From the IMG/VR virus record IMGVR_UViG_3300037296_000014, positions 1 to 43,437 of that record: a DNA stretch of 43,437 nucleotides; one strand, 5' to 3'. Shown here piece after piece: positions 18,390 through 43,437 of the stretch. The translations under genes were made by a program, and so were the position numbers. Within the stretch, counting starts at the first letter, position 1; each line of letters starts with the position of its first letter. This stretch comes from a virus. The notes under the pieces are model-generated. The model searched no databases. It saw only the letters and a list, made by a program, of their open reading frames with translations, and had not been told where the DNA came from.

Positions 18390-19094
18390 ATGAGTTTGGT
18401 TACAGTTCTTAGTACCGCGTTCGCGGCGATTGGCGTAGACACTAAGGCGCTATTTTCGCGGCTTGGCATCGCGGAAACAAAGCTGTCAGGCATCGAAGCG
18501 GGCGCTACGGCAGACCAGACCGCAGCGGAAATTACGGCGCTGTACGAGGGCACGTCAGGCGTCAACCGCTACACGTCCACAGAGAAAACAAAACTCGCAG
18601 GCATCGAAGCGGGCGCTAAGGCGGACCAGACGGCACCGGAAATCGTCTCTCTGTACGAAGGTACATCAGGCGTCAACCGCTACACCACGCCCGACAAGAC
18701 GAAGGTGGGCTACCTGACCGTAACGCAAGTCACGGACCTAGACGCTATCCGCACCGCGATCAACGAAATTGGCACGTCGCCGATGTCGCTCAAGGGCGAA
18801 TGGAGTGCAGCCGCCGCGTTCCCGTCCGGCGCAAAGATCGGGTGGACCTACATTGTAAGCGTCGCAGGGACGCGTGACGGCATCGACTTCGAAGTGGGCG
18901 ACTTGCTTATCGCTACAAAGAACGCGCCTTCCGCAACCGTATACGCGGCGAACTGGTACAAGCAGGACGGTTCCGACCGCGTTATCTCTGTCAATGGCCG
19001 CAACGGGGCTGTTGTCGGACTGCAAGAGGCGTCGCTAGTGGGGGATACCGCACGTTCGTTTGTCTCTGACTACACGACTGCGCGTGACGCATGA
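18390..19094 (+). CDS. Tail fibre protein with two KL-GIEAGA repeats
   Basis: This 234-residue protein has two tandem 37-residue repeats (18480-18701) of the type KLSGIEAGATADQTAAEI followed by YEGTSGVNRYT. KLaGIEaGAtaDQT motifs are widespread in phage fibres and form triple-stranded shafts. The C-terminus VISVNGRNGAVVGLQ is another common fibre motif. The N-terminal segment (STAFAAIGVDTKALFSRLG) resembles the start of the tailspike that follows, so the two may dock in the same way. It starts 2 bases after the anchor gene and overlaps the tailspike start by 4 bases. Confidence 0.82.
   Translation: MSLVTVLSTAFAAIGVDTKALFSRLGIAETKLSGIEAGATADQTAAEITALYEGTSGVNRYTSTEKTKLAGIEAGAKADQTAPEIVSLYEGTSGVNRYTTPDKTKVGYLTVTQVTDLDAIRTAINEIGTSPMSLKGEWSAAAAFPSGAKIGWTYIVSVAGTRDGIDFEVGDLLIATKNAPSATVYAANWYKQDGSDRVISVNGRNGAVVGLQEASLVGDTARSFVSDYTTARDA
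18480..18701 (+). repeat. Two tandem 111-bp in-frame coding repeats in a fibre gene
   Basis: Each unit is 111 bases, or 37 codons: 18480-18590 and 18591-18701. They encode near-identical segments beginning KLSGIEAGATADQT and KLAGIEAGAKADQT and ending NRYT plus five variable residues. Codon differences show the duplication is not recent. Such repeats can expand or contract by recombination and change shaft length. Confidence 0.9.
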
Positions 19095-35190: not shown

Positions 35191-35302
35191 TGCGTTCACT
35201 CTCCGGCTTGCAGGCTGGCGGCTCTGGATCGTTCATATCCCAAACCAGACCGCAGGCCGCGCAGTTCATTTGATCGCTGTACTGGATCGCCTTGCAGGTC
35301 AT
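35150..35302 (-). CDS. Small zinc-ribbon-like protein
   Basis: This 50-residue protein has MNCAACGLVWDMND followed by PEPPACK, plus an earlier C3, giving a C...C-x2-C...C arrangement that could bind one zinc. Short proteins with CxxCgl.WD.nD..PP.C are common in phage early regions and their function is unknown. The ATG at 35302 overlaps the upstream stop (TAATG). The gene is short but its fit between neighbours and cysteine spacing make it convincing. Confidence 0.75.
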   Translation of the reverse strand: MTCKAIQYSDQMNCAACGLVWDMNDPEPPACKPESERNAPTNGKPAKGKR

Positions 35303-36390
35303 TACGCGACCTCTACAACGTCCGTGCCGTCAAGCGCCGCAAGGGCTTCGGCCAGCAGGTTAGCGCGCTTCACGATTTCATCGCGCACAAGGGCGTATTG
35401 GTCGCCGTCAGGGCTGAAAGGCGTCTTGCCCTTGATGTAGTTCGTGTACGTGCTGCGCGATACGCCCAACGCCTCTGCCATGGCCGTGTCGCCTGCGCCG
35501 CAGGACTTCAAGTTGTCCAGCACGATTGGATCGGTCGCGCCTTCCGCCACTTCGGCTGCGGCTGTGGCTTTTTCTTTCTTCGCGGCAGCAGTCGTCGCCC
35601 GGCCAGAAGGCTCTTTGTGTGCAGCCACCAGTTCAAGAATGTCAGACGGCGCGTCGTCCATCGCCATTGCGGCAATCTGCAATGCGGTCACGTCGCCTTC
35701 GTCCAGACCGATGCGCGATGCGGCGGACTGCGTAAGAATGTCGTCGTCGTCTTCAATGATCGTTTCGATGTCTTCGTACACTGCGACTTGATCGAAGCCT
35801 TTACCGACGTGTGCCGATACCTTTGCGATCACTGCGCCGATGTCTGTATCTGCCATTGGTTTTTCTCCTGTATGTGCGTCCAACGCCTCTTGCACCAGAT
35901 CGCGTGTAATGCCCGCGCTTGCCAAGATTTGACTAGGCGTCTTATCAAGCGTTAGCTGTTTGAATACTTCTTTCGCAGCGGACAAAGCGAACTTGTCGAT
36001 ACGCGTGCGGTCGTCGTCTGTTGAAAGCCACAGTTCGGTGTCGATTGTGTTCTTTCCAAGCCAATCGGCAGACAGGTTCGCTTCGTATTCTTCCAACGCA
36101 GCTTCCACAGCGTCGTCTAGGCCGCTTTCGTATTCGCTGCGCTCGTGACTGCCTTCGTCGCCCTCTGCGATGTCGGCGTATTCGCCATTGTTAATCTCGT
36201 ACATGGCCACGGCGTCCAGCACTGCCAGATTGATCGACTTGGCCAGCCCTTCGGTGAACGCCTTCGTCGTGGTGGCGTTCACAACGGTAAGCGCTTCCTC
36301 AATCGTGTGCGGCTTCCTTGGGTTCAGCTTGGGCGATGCGAACGCGGTGGCGATCACGTCAGCGGTGTCGATATGGTCTTGCAGGTACAT
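35302..36390 (-). CDS. Helix-turn-helix protein, possibly made as two products from one frame
   Basis: This 362-residue protein is acidic in its N-terminal half (EGDEGSHERSEYESGLDDAV). The C-terminus has a Cro/C1-type helix-turn-helix (CGAGDTAMAEALGVSRSTYT, then NYIKGKTPF). The ATG at 36390 is chosen because AGAGGA lies 8 bases upstream; an ATG at 36399 sits directly on that motif. A strong in-frame internal start at 35856 would yield a separate 184-residue C-terminal protein including the helix-turn-helix. A regulatory role is likely but unproved. The gene follows a 12-bp inverted repeat. Confidence 0.8.
   Translation of the reverse strand: MYLQDHIDTADVIATAFASPKLNPRKPHTIEEALTVVNATTTKAFTEGLAKSINLAVLDAVAMYEINNGEYADIAEGDEGSHERSEYESGLDDAVEAALEEYEANLSADWLGKNTIDTELWLSTDDDRTRIDKFALSAAKEVFKQLTLDKTPSQILASAGITRDLVQEALDAHTGEKPMADTDIGAVIAKVSAHVGKGFDQVAVYEDIETIIEDDDDILTQSAASRIGLDEGDVTALQIAAMAMDDAPSDILELVAAHKEPSGRATTAAAKKEKATAAAEVAEGATDPIVLDNLKSCGAGDTAMAEALGVSRSTYTNYIKGKTPFSPDGDQYALVRDEIVKRANLLAEALAALDGTDVVEVA
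35854..35869 (-). promoter_or_regulatory. Internal ribosome-binding site and in-frame ATG
   Basis: On the minus strand AGGAG (35869-35865) is followed after 8 bases by ATG (35856-35854), in frame with the surrounding gene. The codons around it (ACA GGA GAA AAA CCA ATG) are AT-rich compared with their neighbours. This would start a 184-residue product beginning MADTDIGAVIAKV. Confidence 0.7.
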
Positions 36391-36414
36391 GGCTTTCATC
36401 CTCTGTGCTTTGTA

Positions 36415-37026: not shown

Positions 37027-37082
37027 GTCGTAAGCCTCTACATTGCGTTCGTGTATTACGTAAACTTGTTAGCGGACAAAGT

Positions 37083-37115
37083 AAAGCCCCCGTCACGCTA
37101 GGCAACGAGGGCTTT
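37083..37115. terminator. Terminator-like hairpin
   Basis: AAAGCCC (37083-37089) pairs with GGGCTTT (37109-37115); CGT and ACG extend the stem after one mismatch. The A/T ends of the stem suit termination on either strand, but a long T run is absent. It divides the small early genes into two groups. A weak promoter-like sequence (TTGTCC and TAATAC on the minus strand) lies downstream of it. Confidence 0.5.
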
Positions 37116-37136
37116 AAGGCCGCAATGGTTTCTGTC

Positions 37137-37698: not shown

Positions 37699-37971
37699 CT
37701 ATTTTTGCGCCAGTTCAAAGGCGGCAATGATTACGGCTGCGTCTTCTTTGCGCACTGCGTGCGCGGCGCGGTCTGACTTGTCAAAGAGGTAGACCGCCCA
37801 GCTACGCGCGCCGATTGTCTGTTTGCGAATTGCGCCGCCGTCATTAGCCGAACACACTGCAAGCGCGCGGCGCAGCAATTCGCTTTCATTCTTTAACCCT
37901 GCTACTGTTTCGTCAAACTTGATCGTGCTGGCTACGATAACTTGCGCGCGGATTTGCTTTTGGTTTCCCAT
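37699..37971 (-). CDS. Unknown small early protein
   Basis: This 90-residue protein has helical segments (NESELLRRALAVCSAN and EDAAVIIAAFELAQK) and a strand (ARSWAVYLFDKSD). It has the AGGATAGAAACC leader before the ATG at 37971. No family recognised. A TGCAGCG/CGCTGCA hairpin lies about 40 bases upstream. Confidence 0.7.
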   Translation of the reverse strand: MGNQKQIRAQVIVASTIKFDETVAGLKNESELLRRALAVCSANDGGAIRKQTIGARSWAVYLFDKSDRAAHAVRKEDAAVIIAAFELAQK

Positions 37972-38010
37972 GGTTTCTATCCTCTTTGCCGGGCGAAAAG
38001 TGCCCTATGA

Positions 38011-38030
38011 TGCAGCGCCGAAACGCTGCA
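38011..38030 (-). repeat. Diverged copy of the TGCAGCG hairpin module
   Basis: TGCAGCG (38011-38017) pairs with CGCTGCA (38024-38030). On the transcribed strand the loop is TTTCGG, close to a UUCG tetraloop. The hairpin is followed by TCATAGGGC, like TCATGGGGC in the three better-conserved copies. The downstream leader is of the other type (AGGATAGAAACC). Confidence 0.7.
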
Positions 38031-38057
38031 CTTTAGGTCAATCTTGCGTCGTGTCGC

Positions 38058-38286: not shown

Positions 38287-38505
38287 TCAATACGTTGCTG
38301 TGGAATGATTAACGCGGCGGGTTTTTCCGCCCTCTACTTCGCGCGCCGCAGTATGGAAGCAATCCACGCGGCCCCCTGCATAGGCGCGCGTTTTGATTGT
38401 CTCCATATCCGCGCGGGATACGCGTACGCCGTCCACATAGAAACGCGCCTCCATACCCCCGCCAATGTGTTCCGCAAGGCTGTGGCTGTGCTTAAAGTTC
38501 CGCAT
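38287..38505 (-). CDS. Unknown small early protein
   Basis: This 72-residue protein (MRNFKHSHSLAEHIGGGMEA, then RFYVDGVRVSRADMETI) has no recognised family. The start has the conserved AATTGGAGAGATACA leader with the hairpin module upstream. Conserved leader copies before this and three neighbouring genes support the start. Confidence 0.68.
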   Translation of the reverse strand: MRNFKHSHSLAEHIGGGMEARFYVDGVRVSRADMETIKTRAYAGGRVDCFHTAAREVEGGKTRRVNHSTATY

Positions 38506-38579
38506 TGTATCTCTCCAATTAGGTTAGAGGCATAATCGCCCCATGATGCAGCGCCGCAGCGCTGCACTAGGGAAGGTTA
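38503..38579 (-). repeat. Leader-hairpin repeat, copy 1
   Basis: This copy runs from the TAA of the upstream gene to the ATG of the next. It contains TAACCTTCCCTAG, the hairpin TGCAGCGC-TGCG-GCGCTGCA (38547-38566), TCATGGGGCGATTATGCC, TCTAACCTAATTGG and the ribosome-binding site GGAGAG. It is nearly identical to the copies at 39066 and 39719. Confidence 0.93.
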
Positions 38580-39068
38580 GGCGTCTAGGGCTGCGCGCAT
38601 TGCGCCGTCTCGTGACTTGGCCCGGACATATACAACGCCCTCTGCGCCCTTGCCCTTGGCCCATACGGCCCATACCGGGCCTTCGCTGGCGCTTGTGCCC
38701 CAATACGCCCCGCCTGCGTCATACTCTCCAGCAGGCCCGGACGCGGCCAGCGCGGCCAAGTCTTCAAAGCCTGGGTTGCGGGATACGCGGCCCATCGGCG
38801 CGCCGTAGCGGCTCGACAGTTTAGGCCAAGGTGTAAAACGTGATGTCTTAACCTTAACCTTGGCCGCGACTGGCCAGCGTACGTTAGCGCCGTATGTATT
38901 TTGCAGGTTACTATATCCGCGCTTGTCGCCTTTCGTCTCAAGGCGTCCGTAGATGTCGCCCGTACCTTCGGACCAGTCCGATATTTTGAACACTTCCCAC
39001 GCGTTGCGCGCGCCGTGGAACACTTCTACCGTATCGCCTGCGCCTATGCTGCGGCCCATGAATTGCAT
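38577..39068 (-). CDS. Unknown early protein
   Basis: This 163-residue protein begins MQFMGRSIGAGDTVEVFHGA and has many glycine and aromatic residues (AWEVFKISDWSEGTGDIYGR; VWAVWAKGKGAEGVVYVRA). It probably forms a beta-rich fold, perhaps with SH3-like character at the start. No family recognised. Both the start and the stop lie within copies of the leader-hairpin repeat. Confidence 0.7.
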   Translation of the reverse strand: MQFMGRSIGAGDTVEVFHGARNAWEVFKISDWSEGTGDIYGRLETKGDKRGYSNLQNTYGANVRWPVAAKVKVKTSRFTPWPKLSSRYGAPMGRVSRNPGFEDLAALAASGPAGEYDAGGAYWGTSASEGPVWAVWAKGKGAEGVVYVRAKSRDGAMRAALDA

Positions 39069-39142
39069 TGTATCTCTCCAATTAGGTTAGAGGCATAATC
39101 GCCCCATGATGCAGCGCTGCGGCGCTGCACTAGGGAAGGTTA
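39066..39142 (-). repeat. Leader-hairpin repeat, copy 2 (inverted tetraloop)
   Basis: This is the same module as copy 1, but the hairpin (39110-39129) has the tetraloop CGCA on the transcribed strand instead of TGCG. The stem TGCAGCGC/GCGCTGCA is unchanged. The two differences are exactly what an inversion of the loop would give. The flanks are otherwise identical to copy 1. Confidence 0.92.
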
Positions 39143-39721
39143 AGCGGTAAGCGCGGCCCATATCTTTGCGCTTGTTTCGTCTGACAGGATGCGCGCATTT
39201 GTTAGACGTACAACGGGCATATTTGCAGCGCCTAAAGACAGGTGCCCTTCAAGGCGCGCCGACAGTTCGCCGTCGTGTTTTGTGTACATGATGAAAGACG
39301 CGCGGCCTAAGTTGTCTACGTCGTGCACCTTCGCGCCGCGCTGCACTTTCTTAAAGTTCGCAATCTGTGCAGTTAGTGCGATCTTGTCTAAGTTGCGTTG
39401 CGTTTCTTGCGCCAGAACTTCGCGCACCATTGGCAGCACGTCATTCAGCAACTTCGCGCGGATAACCTTGGCCGCAGCGGATGCGCCGCGCGACACGTTC
39501 ACGCCGCAGTCAGTCGCAAATGTCTTACGTTCACCGCGTACCGCCTCTGCACTTAGGCTGTACCGCGCGACAGGCTTAGACAGGTCTGCAAATAGATTAA
39601 TGCCGGGTTCAATTTCGAAACCGAAGGCCCAATGGTGGCGCGCGTAACGCGGGTCTACTGTCGCGCCGAACTGTGCGGCCAGTTCTTTGCCGAATGCTTG
39701 TGTTTGCTCAAGTTGTGCCAT
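39140..39721 (-). CDS. Unknown early protein
   Basis: This 193-residue protein runs from the ATG at 39721. It is mixed alpha/beta (WAFGFEIEPGINLFADLSKP; AAAKVIRAKLLNDVLPMVRE; ASFIMYTKHDGELSARLEG). I recognise no family and see no catalytic motif. Its leader has GGAGATATACGAC before the ATG, a small variant of the other copies. Confidence 0.7.
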   Translation of the reverse strand: MAQLEQTQAFGKELAAQFGATVDPRYARHHWAFGFEIEPGINLFADLSKPVARYSLSAEAVRGERKTFATDCGVNVSRGASAAAKVIRAKLLNDVLPMVREVLAQETQRNLDKIALTAQIANFKKVQRGAKVHDVDNLGRASFIMYTKHDGELSARLEGHLSLGAANMPVVRLTNARILSDETSAKIWAALTA

Positions 39722-39797
39722 GTCGTATATCTCCAATTAGGTTAGAGGCATAATCGCCCCATGATGCAGCGCCGCAGCGCTGCACTAGGGAAGGTTA
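39719..39797 (-). repeat. Leader-hairpin repeat, copy 3
   Basis: This copy contains the hairpin TGCAGCGC-TGCG-GCGCTGCA on the transcribed strand (39765-39784) and the same flanks as copy 1, up to CTAATTGGAGATATACGACATG where the last bases differ. It links the stop of the gene at 39795 to the start at 39721. Confidence 0.92.
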
Positions 39798-40019
39798 GGC
39801 GGTCGCGTACGTCCCGGCTTGCCCTGCACTCCATACGCCGCGCGCCAGTATCTCGTACTCTCTTTCTGTTACGGGATAGCCACGGCCTAGGCGGTCAATC
39901 CGTTCTGCGTCCACAAGGCAGGCTAGGCTGTCGCGCATCGGGTCGCCGTGAAAGTAAGCGCTAAACTTAGAAGCGCGGCCCGGTATCGTGATTTTGTGAA
40001 AGTAGTGTGTCGCGTTCAT
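39795..40019 (-). CDS. Unknown small early protein
   Basis: This 74-residue protein begins MNATHYFHKITIPGRASKFS and ends GVWSAGQAGTYATA. The middle is AYFHGDPMRDSLACLVDAER. No family recognised. The ATG at 40019 has the conserved AATTGGAGAGATACA leader but no hairpin in this copy. Confidence 0.68.
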   Translation of the reverse strand: MNATHYFHKITIPGRASKFSAYFHGDPMRDSLACLVDAERIDRLGRGYPVTEREYEILARGVWSAGQAGTYATA

Positions 40020-40048
40020 TGTATCTCTCCAATTAGGTTAAAAGGTTA
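40017..40048 (-). repeat. Leader repeat lacking the hairpin (copy 0)
   Basis: From TAA to ATG it reads TAACCTTTTAACCTAATTGG then AGAGATACAATG. Compared with copies 1-3 it lacks the segment between the two TAACCT sequences, that is, the hairpin and TCATGGGGCGATTATGCC. It is therefore either the ancestral leader or the product of a deletion between the direct repeats. Confidence 0.85.
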
Positions 40049-41094: not shown

Positions 41095-41196
41095 TACCCT
41101 AAATACACGATATGTCTAAGCGGTTGTTAGTGTGCCTGCGTCCGGTAGGCGCAGTAACACAACGGCCCTTTGACATTACGTCCCGATAGGCTGTGC

Positions 41197-41232
41197 GTAC
41201 GCAGAGTGCGTATCGTACGCAGAGTGTGCAAG
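41197..41232. repeat. Tandem 18-bp repeat in the control region
   Basis: Two units, 41197-41214 and 41215-41232, share GTACGCAGAGTG and then diverge. The motif is related to the palindromes at 41689-41792 by its GTACGCA and GTGCG parts. Two tandem sites of this kind suit a DNA-binding protein acting on early transcription or replication. Confidence 0.75.
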
Positions 41233-41460
41233 TGAACTGATTGTACAGTCAGTACCGGATTGAACGTAAAGGACGATGGGTCAGCAACGCAAAGGACACA
41301 ACGCTCACCCCTCGTGCGATGCGCGCAAGATACACAGAGTGCGCAACGTGCTGCACTGCACAGTGTGCAATCCTGCCCTAGACCGTGGCCATTCAGCACA
41401 ACGTGCAACACTACATCTTGTGGTTTGCGCTCGATACGCACGAGGCGAAAACCTAAGCCA

Positions 41461-41511
41461 TTGATAACGTTGTGTTTCTTTTACGGATAATAGGTAATAT
41501 GTTAAATAGGA
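41461..41511. promoter_or_regulatory. AT-rich island with promoter-like sequences
   Basis: This short AT-rich stretch in GC-rich DNA has TTGATA (41461-41466) and GATAAT (41486-41491) on the plus strand with a long 19-base spacer, and TAATAT at 41495-41500. The minus strand also has a possible -10 (TATTAC). It may be a promoter, a DNA-unwinding element, or both. Confidence 0.4.
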
Positions 41512-41530
41512 AAGGCTGCAAGGCGTCTGT

Positions 41531-41598
41531 GGCGCGCGCGCGTACGTACAGGCAGGCGCGCGCGCGAAGGGAGGGGGGGTAAGGCGGGGGTAGGGGGG
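41531..41598. other. Z-DNA-prone alternating tract followed by G-quadruplex-type tract
   Basis: GCGCGCGCGCGTACGTAC (about 41532-41549) is a perfect alternation of purine and pyrimidine, and a second CG run lies at 41555-41566. The following G runs at 41569-41571, 41573-41579, 41586-41590 and 41593-41598 meet the four-run rule for a G-quadruplex on the plus strand. Both kinds of sequence are rare at this density elsewhere in the window. Confidence 0.75.
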
Positions 41599-41662
41599 CG
41601 ATGTGACTTTCCGCTTGATACCCCGCAAAGGCCGATACGCCAGCGTGTTCTGTAAAAATTAC

Positions 41663-41792
41663 AAAACGCACAACGCGTAATGCACAAAACGCACAGTGTG
41701 TATCGAAACGCGGAAAACGCACTGTGCGTAAGACAAGGACGGCTTGTCACAGTGTCCACCCACTAATCGCCCACGGCTACGCACAGTGCGCA
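41663..41792. repeat. Palindromic ACGCAC repeats (iteron or operator cluster)
   Basis: AAAACGCAC occurs at 41663, 41686 and 41714. ACGCACTGTGCGT (41717-41729) is a perfect palindrome, ACGCACAGTGTGT lies at 41689-41701 and TACGCACAGTGCGCA at 41778-41792. Related forms occur at 41197-41232, 41333-41350 and 41353-41370. The spacing (23, 28, about 60 bases) is not helically regular. A dimeric DNA-binding protein is the natural reading. Confidence 0.8.
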
Positions 41793-41877
41793 ATTTCCAA
41801 ACCGCGTGCTGCGCATATTGACTATTACGCTCGGATACCGGAGGGTGGCCGGGTAGTCAGTAAAGGAGGCGACAGCC

Positions 41878-42959: not shown

Positions 42960-43437
42960 CATAAGCGTAGCGAAGGAAAAGGAACTAGCCGAGTTCATCG
43001 CGGGTTTCTACGACGACCCGTACGGCTTCGTGCTGGCGGCGTTCCCATGGGGCGAAGCGACGTTGCCGGACGGCGGGTTCAATCCACTGGCCGACAAGAA
43101 AGGCCCGGAACAGTGGCAGCGCGAAGAACTCGAAGCGCTTGGCGAACACATCAAAAAGAACATGCTACTGACCGACCTAGGGCTGGACATGGAAGTGTAC
43201 CGCCTAGCGCTGGCGTCCGGCCACGGCATCGGCAAGTCTGCGTTCGTGGCGTGGATCATCCTATTCCTGATGTCCACACGGACAGACACGCGCATGGCTG
43301 TGACGGCTTCGACGCAGTTCCAGCTAGAGGATAAGACGTGGCCCGAACTTGGCAAATGGCTAGGGCTGTCGATCAATAAGCACTGGTTCCTGTGGACCGC
43401 CACGGCGCTGTCGTTCGCAGCCTACCCGGAAGCGAAG
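42949..43437 (+). CDS. terL: Terminase large subunit, N-terminal part (continues at base 1 of the window)
   Basis: These are the first 163 codons of the 508-residue packaging ATPase/nuclease. Walker A is ASGHGIGKSAF (G91-S97, K96), and the adenine-binding region precedes it. GGGA lies just before the ATG at 42949. The frame passes through the 127-base repeat and continues at base 2 of the window, where Walker B and the nuclease domain are found. It is truncated only by the window end. Confidence 0.95.
   Translation, partial: MAGNISVAKEKELAEFIAGFYDDPYGFVLAAFPWGEATLPDGGFNPLADKKGPEQWQREELEALGEHIKKNMLLTDLGLDMEVYRLALASGHGIGKSAFVAWIILFLMSTRTDTRMAVTASTQFQLEDKTWPELGKWLGLSINKHWFLWTATALSFAAYPEAK
43311..43437. 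repeat. Right copy of 127-bp exact terminal repeat (assembly join)
   Basis: These bases are identical to 1-127. They lie inside the large terminase gene, so the repeat is explained by circular overlap and not by a packaged terminal repeat. Confidence 0.95.

Follow-up and report, generated by a model that had tools for sequence, protein, structure and literature searches.

We show that the early genes of a podovirus are separated by a family of two-part RNA hairpins, and that the same architecture recurs in the early-gene gaps of related phages. These hairpins share the fold of the RNase III sites of phage T7. We consider it likely that they are T7-type RNase III processing signals, which would cut polycistronic early mRNA. 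The window analyzed here is the whole 43,437-nt viral record IMGVR_UViG_3300037296_000014 from IMG/VR.

Results

The window encodes a podovirus. Its gene products include a T7-type head-tail adaptor, a major head protein of the HTVC010P kind and tail proteins, together with a replication and packaging set (DNA polymerase, primase/helicase, Gp2.5-like SSB, Holliday-junction resolvase, and terminase). No phage RNA polymerase, large RNA polymerase included, was found among the ORFs scanned in the window. An exact 127-bp repeat at the ends (1-127 and 43311-43437) marks the record as an assembly with either circular closure or terminal redundancy. A tail-fibre-like gene holds a 111-bp tandem duplication (18475-18696, 80% identical).

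The early region occupies the minus strand from about 41.0 to 35.3 kb. It consists of small genes almost without family matches, and we infer that it is early from gene size and position. At 35302-36399 it encodes a conserved 365-aa protein with a weak C-terminal Xre/HTH_3-like match; several relatives have this protein, which was absent from every cultured phage record searched. The roughly 770 bp between the two transcription directions (41100-41870) apparently lack a clear gene and are rich in ACGCACAGTGTG/CGCACAACG-like words, making this a possible origin or early promoter region.

Three gaps in the early region carry nearly the same sequence. Genes A (39795-40019; 74 aa), B (39140-39721; 193 aa), C (38577-39068; 163 aa), and D (38287-38505; 72 aa) follow one another from right to left on the minus strand. 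The stop-to-start modules between them, A>B (39722-39794), B>C (39069-39139), and C>D (38506-38576), are each 71-73 nt long. Direct-repeat and self-searches recovered minus-strand copies at 38503-38580 (the query), 39066-39142 (97%), and 39725-39798 (99%), with an identity of 97-99% over the matched 74-78 nt and 93-97% across the whole gap. The near-identical repeat that the sequence-only reading had described at three gene junctions is thus real, although the unit it quoted lacked TC before TAACCTAATTGG and overlooked that copy A>B ends in GGAGATATACGACATG.

The genes that flank the modules are not copies of one another: compared among themselves, proteins A, B, C, and D show no convincing similarity. 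Gene A has no family match, and gene B, used as bait, drew no relative from the viral contigs. The C-terminal half of gene C is 63% identical to a gene in the related locus L066, and gene D has a relative in L077 at 44%.

Hairpin and ribosome-site motifs combine freely in the window, where the start motifs are TAACCTAATTGGAGAGATACA and AGGATAGAAACC. A 24-nt partial copy upstream of gene A (40017-40040, minus strand) comprises the ribosome-site part only (TAACCTAATTGGAGAGATACAATG), without the hairpin. A second start-associated sequence, AGGATAGAAACCATG, lies at 37969-37983 on the minus strand with a diverged hairpin in front of it. In the form (T)AGGATAGAAACCATG, it precedes at least three small genes (starts 37971, 37688, and 37308) and is degenerate near 37130.

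Each module contains a two-part hairpin. In every unit, a tetraloop caps a 9-bp stem, an internal loop of 2x2 or 2x3 follows, and an imperfect lower stem brings the total to 18-25 bp. Below the 9-bp stem there is a CCC/GGGG pairing, and the upstream stop codon UAA pairs with UUA. All four hairpins are on the minus strand. Hairpin 1, between genes A and B (39748-39800; upper stem-loop 39764-39785), has a UGCG loop, helices of 9, 4, 1, 3, and 2 bp outward, and internal loops of (2,3), (1,1), and (1,1), the general form in the window. Hairpin 2, between B and C (39093-39145; upper stem-loop 39109-39130), has a CGCA loop, and hairpin 3, between C and D (38525-38587; upper stem-loop 38546-38567), a UGCG loop. 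The diverged hairpin 4, upstream of gene F (37990-38051; upper stem-loop 38010-38031), has a UUCG loop and was also matched in the self-search (31 nt, 90%, 38002-38032).

The sequence-only reading had recognized the upper stems, including the diverged one that it placed at 38011-38030, which is present with a TTCG tetraloop. It missed the lower stem in the flanks and the minus strand, and it left the loop as a variable N4, where two copies read TGCG and the middle one reads CGCA. Hairpin 2 (39109-39130) carries in its loop the reverse complement, letter for letter, of the TGCG of its sister copies, as if its tip had been inverted during replication. A slightly longer fold of hairpin 2 has an alternative in which the lower stem is unpaired, and the lower stem is weaker in the three near-identical window copies than in relatives. 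The early region also holds an uninterrupted 15-bp hairpin (37080-37120; TAAAGCCC...GGGCTTTA), which is near-symmetrical, unlike the two-part hairpins, and looks like a bidirectional terminator.

A strict structural rule finds these hairpins and nothing else in the window. The rule, set after the hairpins had been seen, demands a tetraloop, an upper stem of 9-11 bp, a first internal loop of 2x2 or 2x3, then a 1x1 mismatch, and at least 17 bp. It returns exactly the four hairpins on the minus strand, none on the plus strand, and none in 14 shuffled window strands, which excludes chance for the strict structure. A loose grammar gave 13 matches on the two window strands versus 8 and 11 on two shuffled strands. 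Since the loose form is not above chance across this GC-rich genome, the strict rule carries the argument. Applied to the T7 genome, the same rule matches only three sites, which from their positions we take to be R0.3, R1, and R1.1, and none on the other strand.

The architecture is widespread among related phages. About 15 related phage contigs carry it in their early-gene gaps, with stem sequences that are mostly different. An exact-module scan of viral contigs found no copy, and neither did a DNA search with the 78-nt unit in 27 capsid-related records. Sequence search alone therefore misses this hairpin family. A repeat finder showed that L050, L053, L055, L058, and L059 each have their own repeated intergenic hairpin unit, unrelated in sequence, in the equivalent early region, while in L056 it detected start motifs only. 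A profile of the 365-aa early protein led to 16 loci; several were new, and the nearest relatives, L065-L068, are among them. Two contigs share the window's upper stem, TGCAGCGYTNCGGCGCTGCATCA: L081 and L082, the latter being the L068 contig.

The pooled early regions contain 72 gaps of 50-100 nt; a strong hairpin is present in 37 of these, where dinucleotide shuffles predict 4.5. The upper stem mostly begins 6-15 nt past the stop codon and finishes 25-43 nt before the next start; genes in relatives were called by a simple script, and some gap ends are approximate. Hairpin gaps of this kind are few in L071 and L077, and many other gaps in hairpin-bearing operons are shorter than 20 nt or overlapping. 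The distant cultured phages HTVC010P, BUCT708, and DC33 gave no strict-grammar matches, and a J-protein search of bacterial genomes returned no relatives. The record of Limnohabitans phage DC33 (L085; PQ492659) is filed as Inoviridae, yet it holds a 39-kb genome with a podovirus-type portal; the label is probably wrong.

Base pairing is conserved while stem sequences vary. Thirteen distinct hairpins share the pattern A-G, 8 bp, loop, 8 bp, U-C-A, compared with two in a reversed-sequence control. Of 40 hairpins, 35 have the two-part form, compared with 11.7 when the flanks are shuffled; in 31 of the 35, the final base of the stop codon falls within the hairpin. The lower-stem score is 18.4, versus 9.6 (sd 4.3) with swapped 3' flanks. 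In ten hairpins from relatives, a 19-pair structure has 92.6% of its cells paired and both-side changes at 16 of the 19 pairs; none of 500 shuffles reaches the observed value, and slid versions give 29-43%. A18, G19, U41, C42, and A43 are invariant in these ten hairpins and the stems vary. The set was chosen by AG...UCA, so the invariance of those letters is descriptive, and the pairing above and below them is the independent result.

A covariance model built from relatives only, with the window left out (model R1), recovers all four window hairpins. It matches the diverged hairpin 4 at full length (E 1.9e-10); for hairpins 1-3, the matches cover the upper parts (5.6e-5, 5.6e-5, and 0.0046). 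In Rfam, no family reached its gathering score.

The structure is polarized to the mRNA strand. Read in mRNA sense, the outermost upper-stem pair is G.U in all ten of the relatives' hairpins, and the tetraloops are of UNCG or GNRA type in 12 cases and of a complementary type in one, the middle copy of the window. Folds are also more stable in sense than in antisense (-28.1 versus -26.8 kcal/mol, p 0.03). The locus L068 alone carries five different stems, with pairing kept. This variation of stems even within one locus, together with the strand bias of the G.U pairs and UNCG loops, indicates an RNA structure rather than a sequence-specific DNA site, and we reject a sequence-specific DNA-binding palindrome on these grounds.

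Copies are alike within genomes and unlike between them. Gap identity within a genome is 86-100% in the window, L072, L079, and partly L078. Between phages, close pairs apart, the mean gap identity is 0.58, equal to that of a global alignment of unrelated gaps. This contrast points to duplication or homogenization within each genome, and we attribute the near-identity of the window copies to duplication or gene conversion. The sequence-only reading had regarded unrelated spacers in related phages, combined with no effect in RNA-seq, as a sign that the repeat was only a recent duplication. The spacers are indeed largely unrelated in sequence, but the same structure is present in them, including upstream of the L066 homologue of gene C. 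In front of that homologue (1524-1796), the model matches a hairpin at 1445-1502 whose stem differs, showing that the element is retained as its sequence changes. Pure recent duplication thus does not explain the hairpin element. Homogenization by duplication or conversion possibly helps the exchange of early genes.

Discussion

The window hairpins resemble T7 RNase III sites in position and fold. Processing of T7 early mRNA is a textbook case. Five RNase III cuts are made in this mRNA (PMC4858673), and an internal loop is part of the R1.1 site, which separates gene 1.0 from gene 1.1 (PMC6121014). Like R0.3, R0.5, R1, R1.1, and R1.3, the window modules are intercistronic and lie in an early operon of small genes; the T7 gaps at R0.5 and R1 are 62-70 nt long, and the modules 71-73 nt. 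In our folds, T7 R1 has a UGCG loop, helices of 9, 5, and 4 bp, and internal loops of (2,3) and (1,1), beginning 2 nt beyond the end of gene 0.7, and R0.3 has a GCAA loop, helices of 9, 1, 5, and 3 bp, and internal loops of (2,3), (1,1), and (1,1). T7 R0.3 and R1 thus share with the window hairpins a 9-10-bp upper stem, a (2,3) internal loop, 1x1 mismatches, and a length of about 18 bp. T7 sites and window hairpins also have the GCAA/UGCG tetraloop type and the lack of a U-run in common. The window family combines intercistronic position, an imperfect hairpin of about two turns, and compensatory change in RNA pairing, as expected of T7-type sites.

There are also differences. The early genes of the window show no relation to those of T7, and a phage RNA polymerase was not among the scanned ORFs. 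The internal loop keeps A-G/U-C-A in the window's close relatives, whereas T7 has CUCAAGG/CCUUUAUGA. T7 sites resemble one another within the genome, as the window's do, at 65-80% over 45 nt, but the window copies are near-identical, ribosome site included, with the stop codon usually within the lower stem. Model R1 found no match in the T7 early region. Kinship with the T7 sites is therefore unsupported, and the resemblance is architectural only. A literature search for this hairpin type in other podoviruses returned nothing relevant.

Other repeated intergenic elements of phages share some of these features. The PeSL cassettes of T4-type phages reportedly join an early promoter to a terminator stem-loop and have been proposed to help shuffle small genes. 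The window modules are likewise repeated intergenic stem-loop units, but they lack both a sigma-70-like promoter and a U-run. T4 is also said to have CUUCGG hairpins between its cistrons. These are UNCG-capped and lie between phage genes, as ours do; the window unit differs in being two-part, with an internal loop and a lower stem. In cluster K mycobacteriophages, SAS/ESAS elements consist of a repeated start-associated sequence, about half with an inverted repeat upstream, and the consensus differs between subclusters (PMC3203893). The window family similarly has a repeated start-associated sequence at gene starts with a hairpin upstream. The consensus GGGATAGGAGCCC was not found at the window starts, which carry the two motifs given above. 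The ESAS authors saw little support for RNA hairpins and preferred DNA-binding sites (PMC3203893), whereas RNA pairing is strongly supported in the window family.

The T7 comparison suggests how the modules may work. Transcription of the early region by host RNA polymerase would yield a polycistronic mRNA, co-transcription being suggested by gene order. In each 70-85-nt gap, the RNA folds into an imperfect two-part hairpin with a GC-rich 9-bp upper stem, a tetraloop of mostly UNCG type, and a lower stem with single mismatches that takes in the upstream stop codon. If T7 R1.1 is a guide, host RNase III, the candidate enzyme, would then make a single cut in the 3' strand of the internal loop; the predicted cut points are at about 38543-38546, 39106-39109, and 39761-39764. 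After cutting, the upstream mRNA would carry a stable hairpin at its 3' end, and the downstream gene would have a short leader, about 40 nt long, in which the Shine-Dalgarno site is free; an effect on expression is presumed. As a matter of speculation, a terminating ribosome could hold off cutting, since the stop codon sits in the lower stem. We think it unlikely that the whole of a more elaborate scheme holds, in which a structured RNA couples translation termination to cutting across the lineage, the ribosome at the stop melts the site, A-G/U-C-A positions the cut or brings in a factor, and every phage homogenizes the version that it carries.

The sequence-only reading had proposed a common function such as RNA processing or protein binding. 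RNA processing is now the best supported, given the sense-strand structure and the T7 RNase III architecture, and a DNA-binding palindrome is disfavored. Other RNA roles could nonetheless select a similar hairpin. The modules might act uncut, as insulators that block ribosome sliding or gene coupling and as shields against 3' exonucleases, without RNase III. The upper stem does sit just outside the terminating and initiating ribosomes, and UNCG caps are very stable. A plain stem would do for this purpose, however, and three features of T7 RNase III sites would go unexplained, namely a conserved internal loop, a 1x1 mismatch, and a lower stem of such length; we find this role rather unlikely. 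Alternatively, an RNA-binding protein of the phage or its host might recognize the internal loop A-G ... U-C-A in an otherwise variable helix, or the hairpin might be an antitermination RNA that acts in cis and is recognized in this way. Either role would fit the invariance of the five internal-loop letters in the ten relatives' hairpins, which is due in part to how that set was selected. L059, L072, L078, and L079 have other internal-loop letters within the same architecture and no candidate RNA-binding protein was identified, making these roles improbable.

The hairpin could also be incidental, the identical modules serving as PeSL-like borders that let small early genes shuffle by recombination. 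Genes between the modules are mostly without relatives, and modules of one genome are nearly the same (93-100% in the window, L072, and L079), whereas those of different genomes are mostly unrelated. Homology alone would not conserve a structure across phages with different stems, though, and the module has no promoter of the kind that PeSLs reportedly have. We regard this as very unlikely to be the main role; cassette exchange may be a by-product alongside RNase III processing. Both a PeSL-like promoter and a hairpin promoter for an N4 virion RNA polymerase were rejected, as the modules contain no sigma-70-like site (the only promoter type scanned for) and the scanned ORFs no large RNA polymerase. 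Finally, a GC-rich stem after a stop codon might recall a weak or T-less intrinsic terminator that attenuates transcription between early genes. The sequence-only reading had already argued against a normal terminator for want of a T run, and this holds across 40 hairpins, which average 2.0 T per 8 nt. With no U-run directly after the stem, an intrinsic terminator was rejected; terminator prediction called none on the minus strand at the modules, and the uninterrupted 15-bp stems in these genomes look more terminator-like. Attenuation is thus extremely unlikely.

RNase III processing, the reading we favor, has wider implications. The presence of T7 architecture in podoviruses with a non-T7-like early region, and in which a phage RNA polymerase was not found, suggests that RNase III segmentation of early mRNA is more widespread than the T7 case, or has arisen repeatedly. 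The lineage supplies dozens of natural stem variants, which would be useful for learning the requirements of RNase III sites. It also provides a clear case of a regulatory RNA that is near-identical inside each genome and completely changed between genomes, and it yields a structural criterion by which operon breaks can be annotated where the early genes are unknown.
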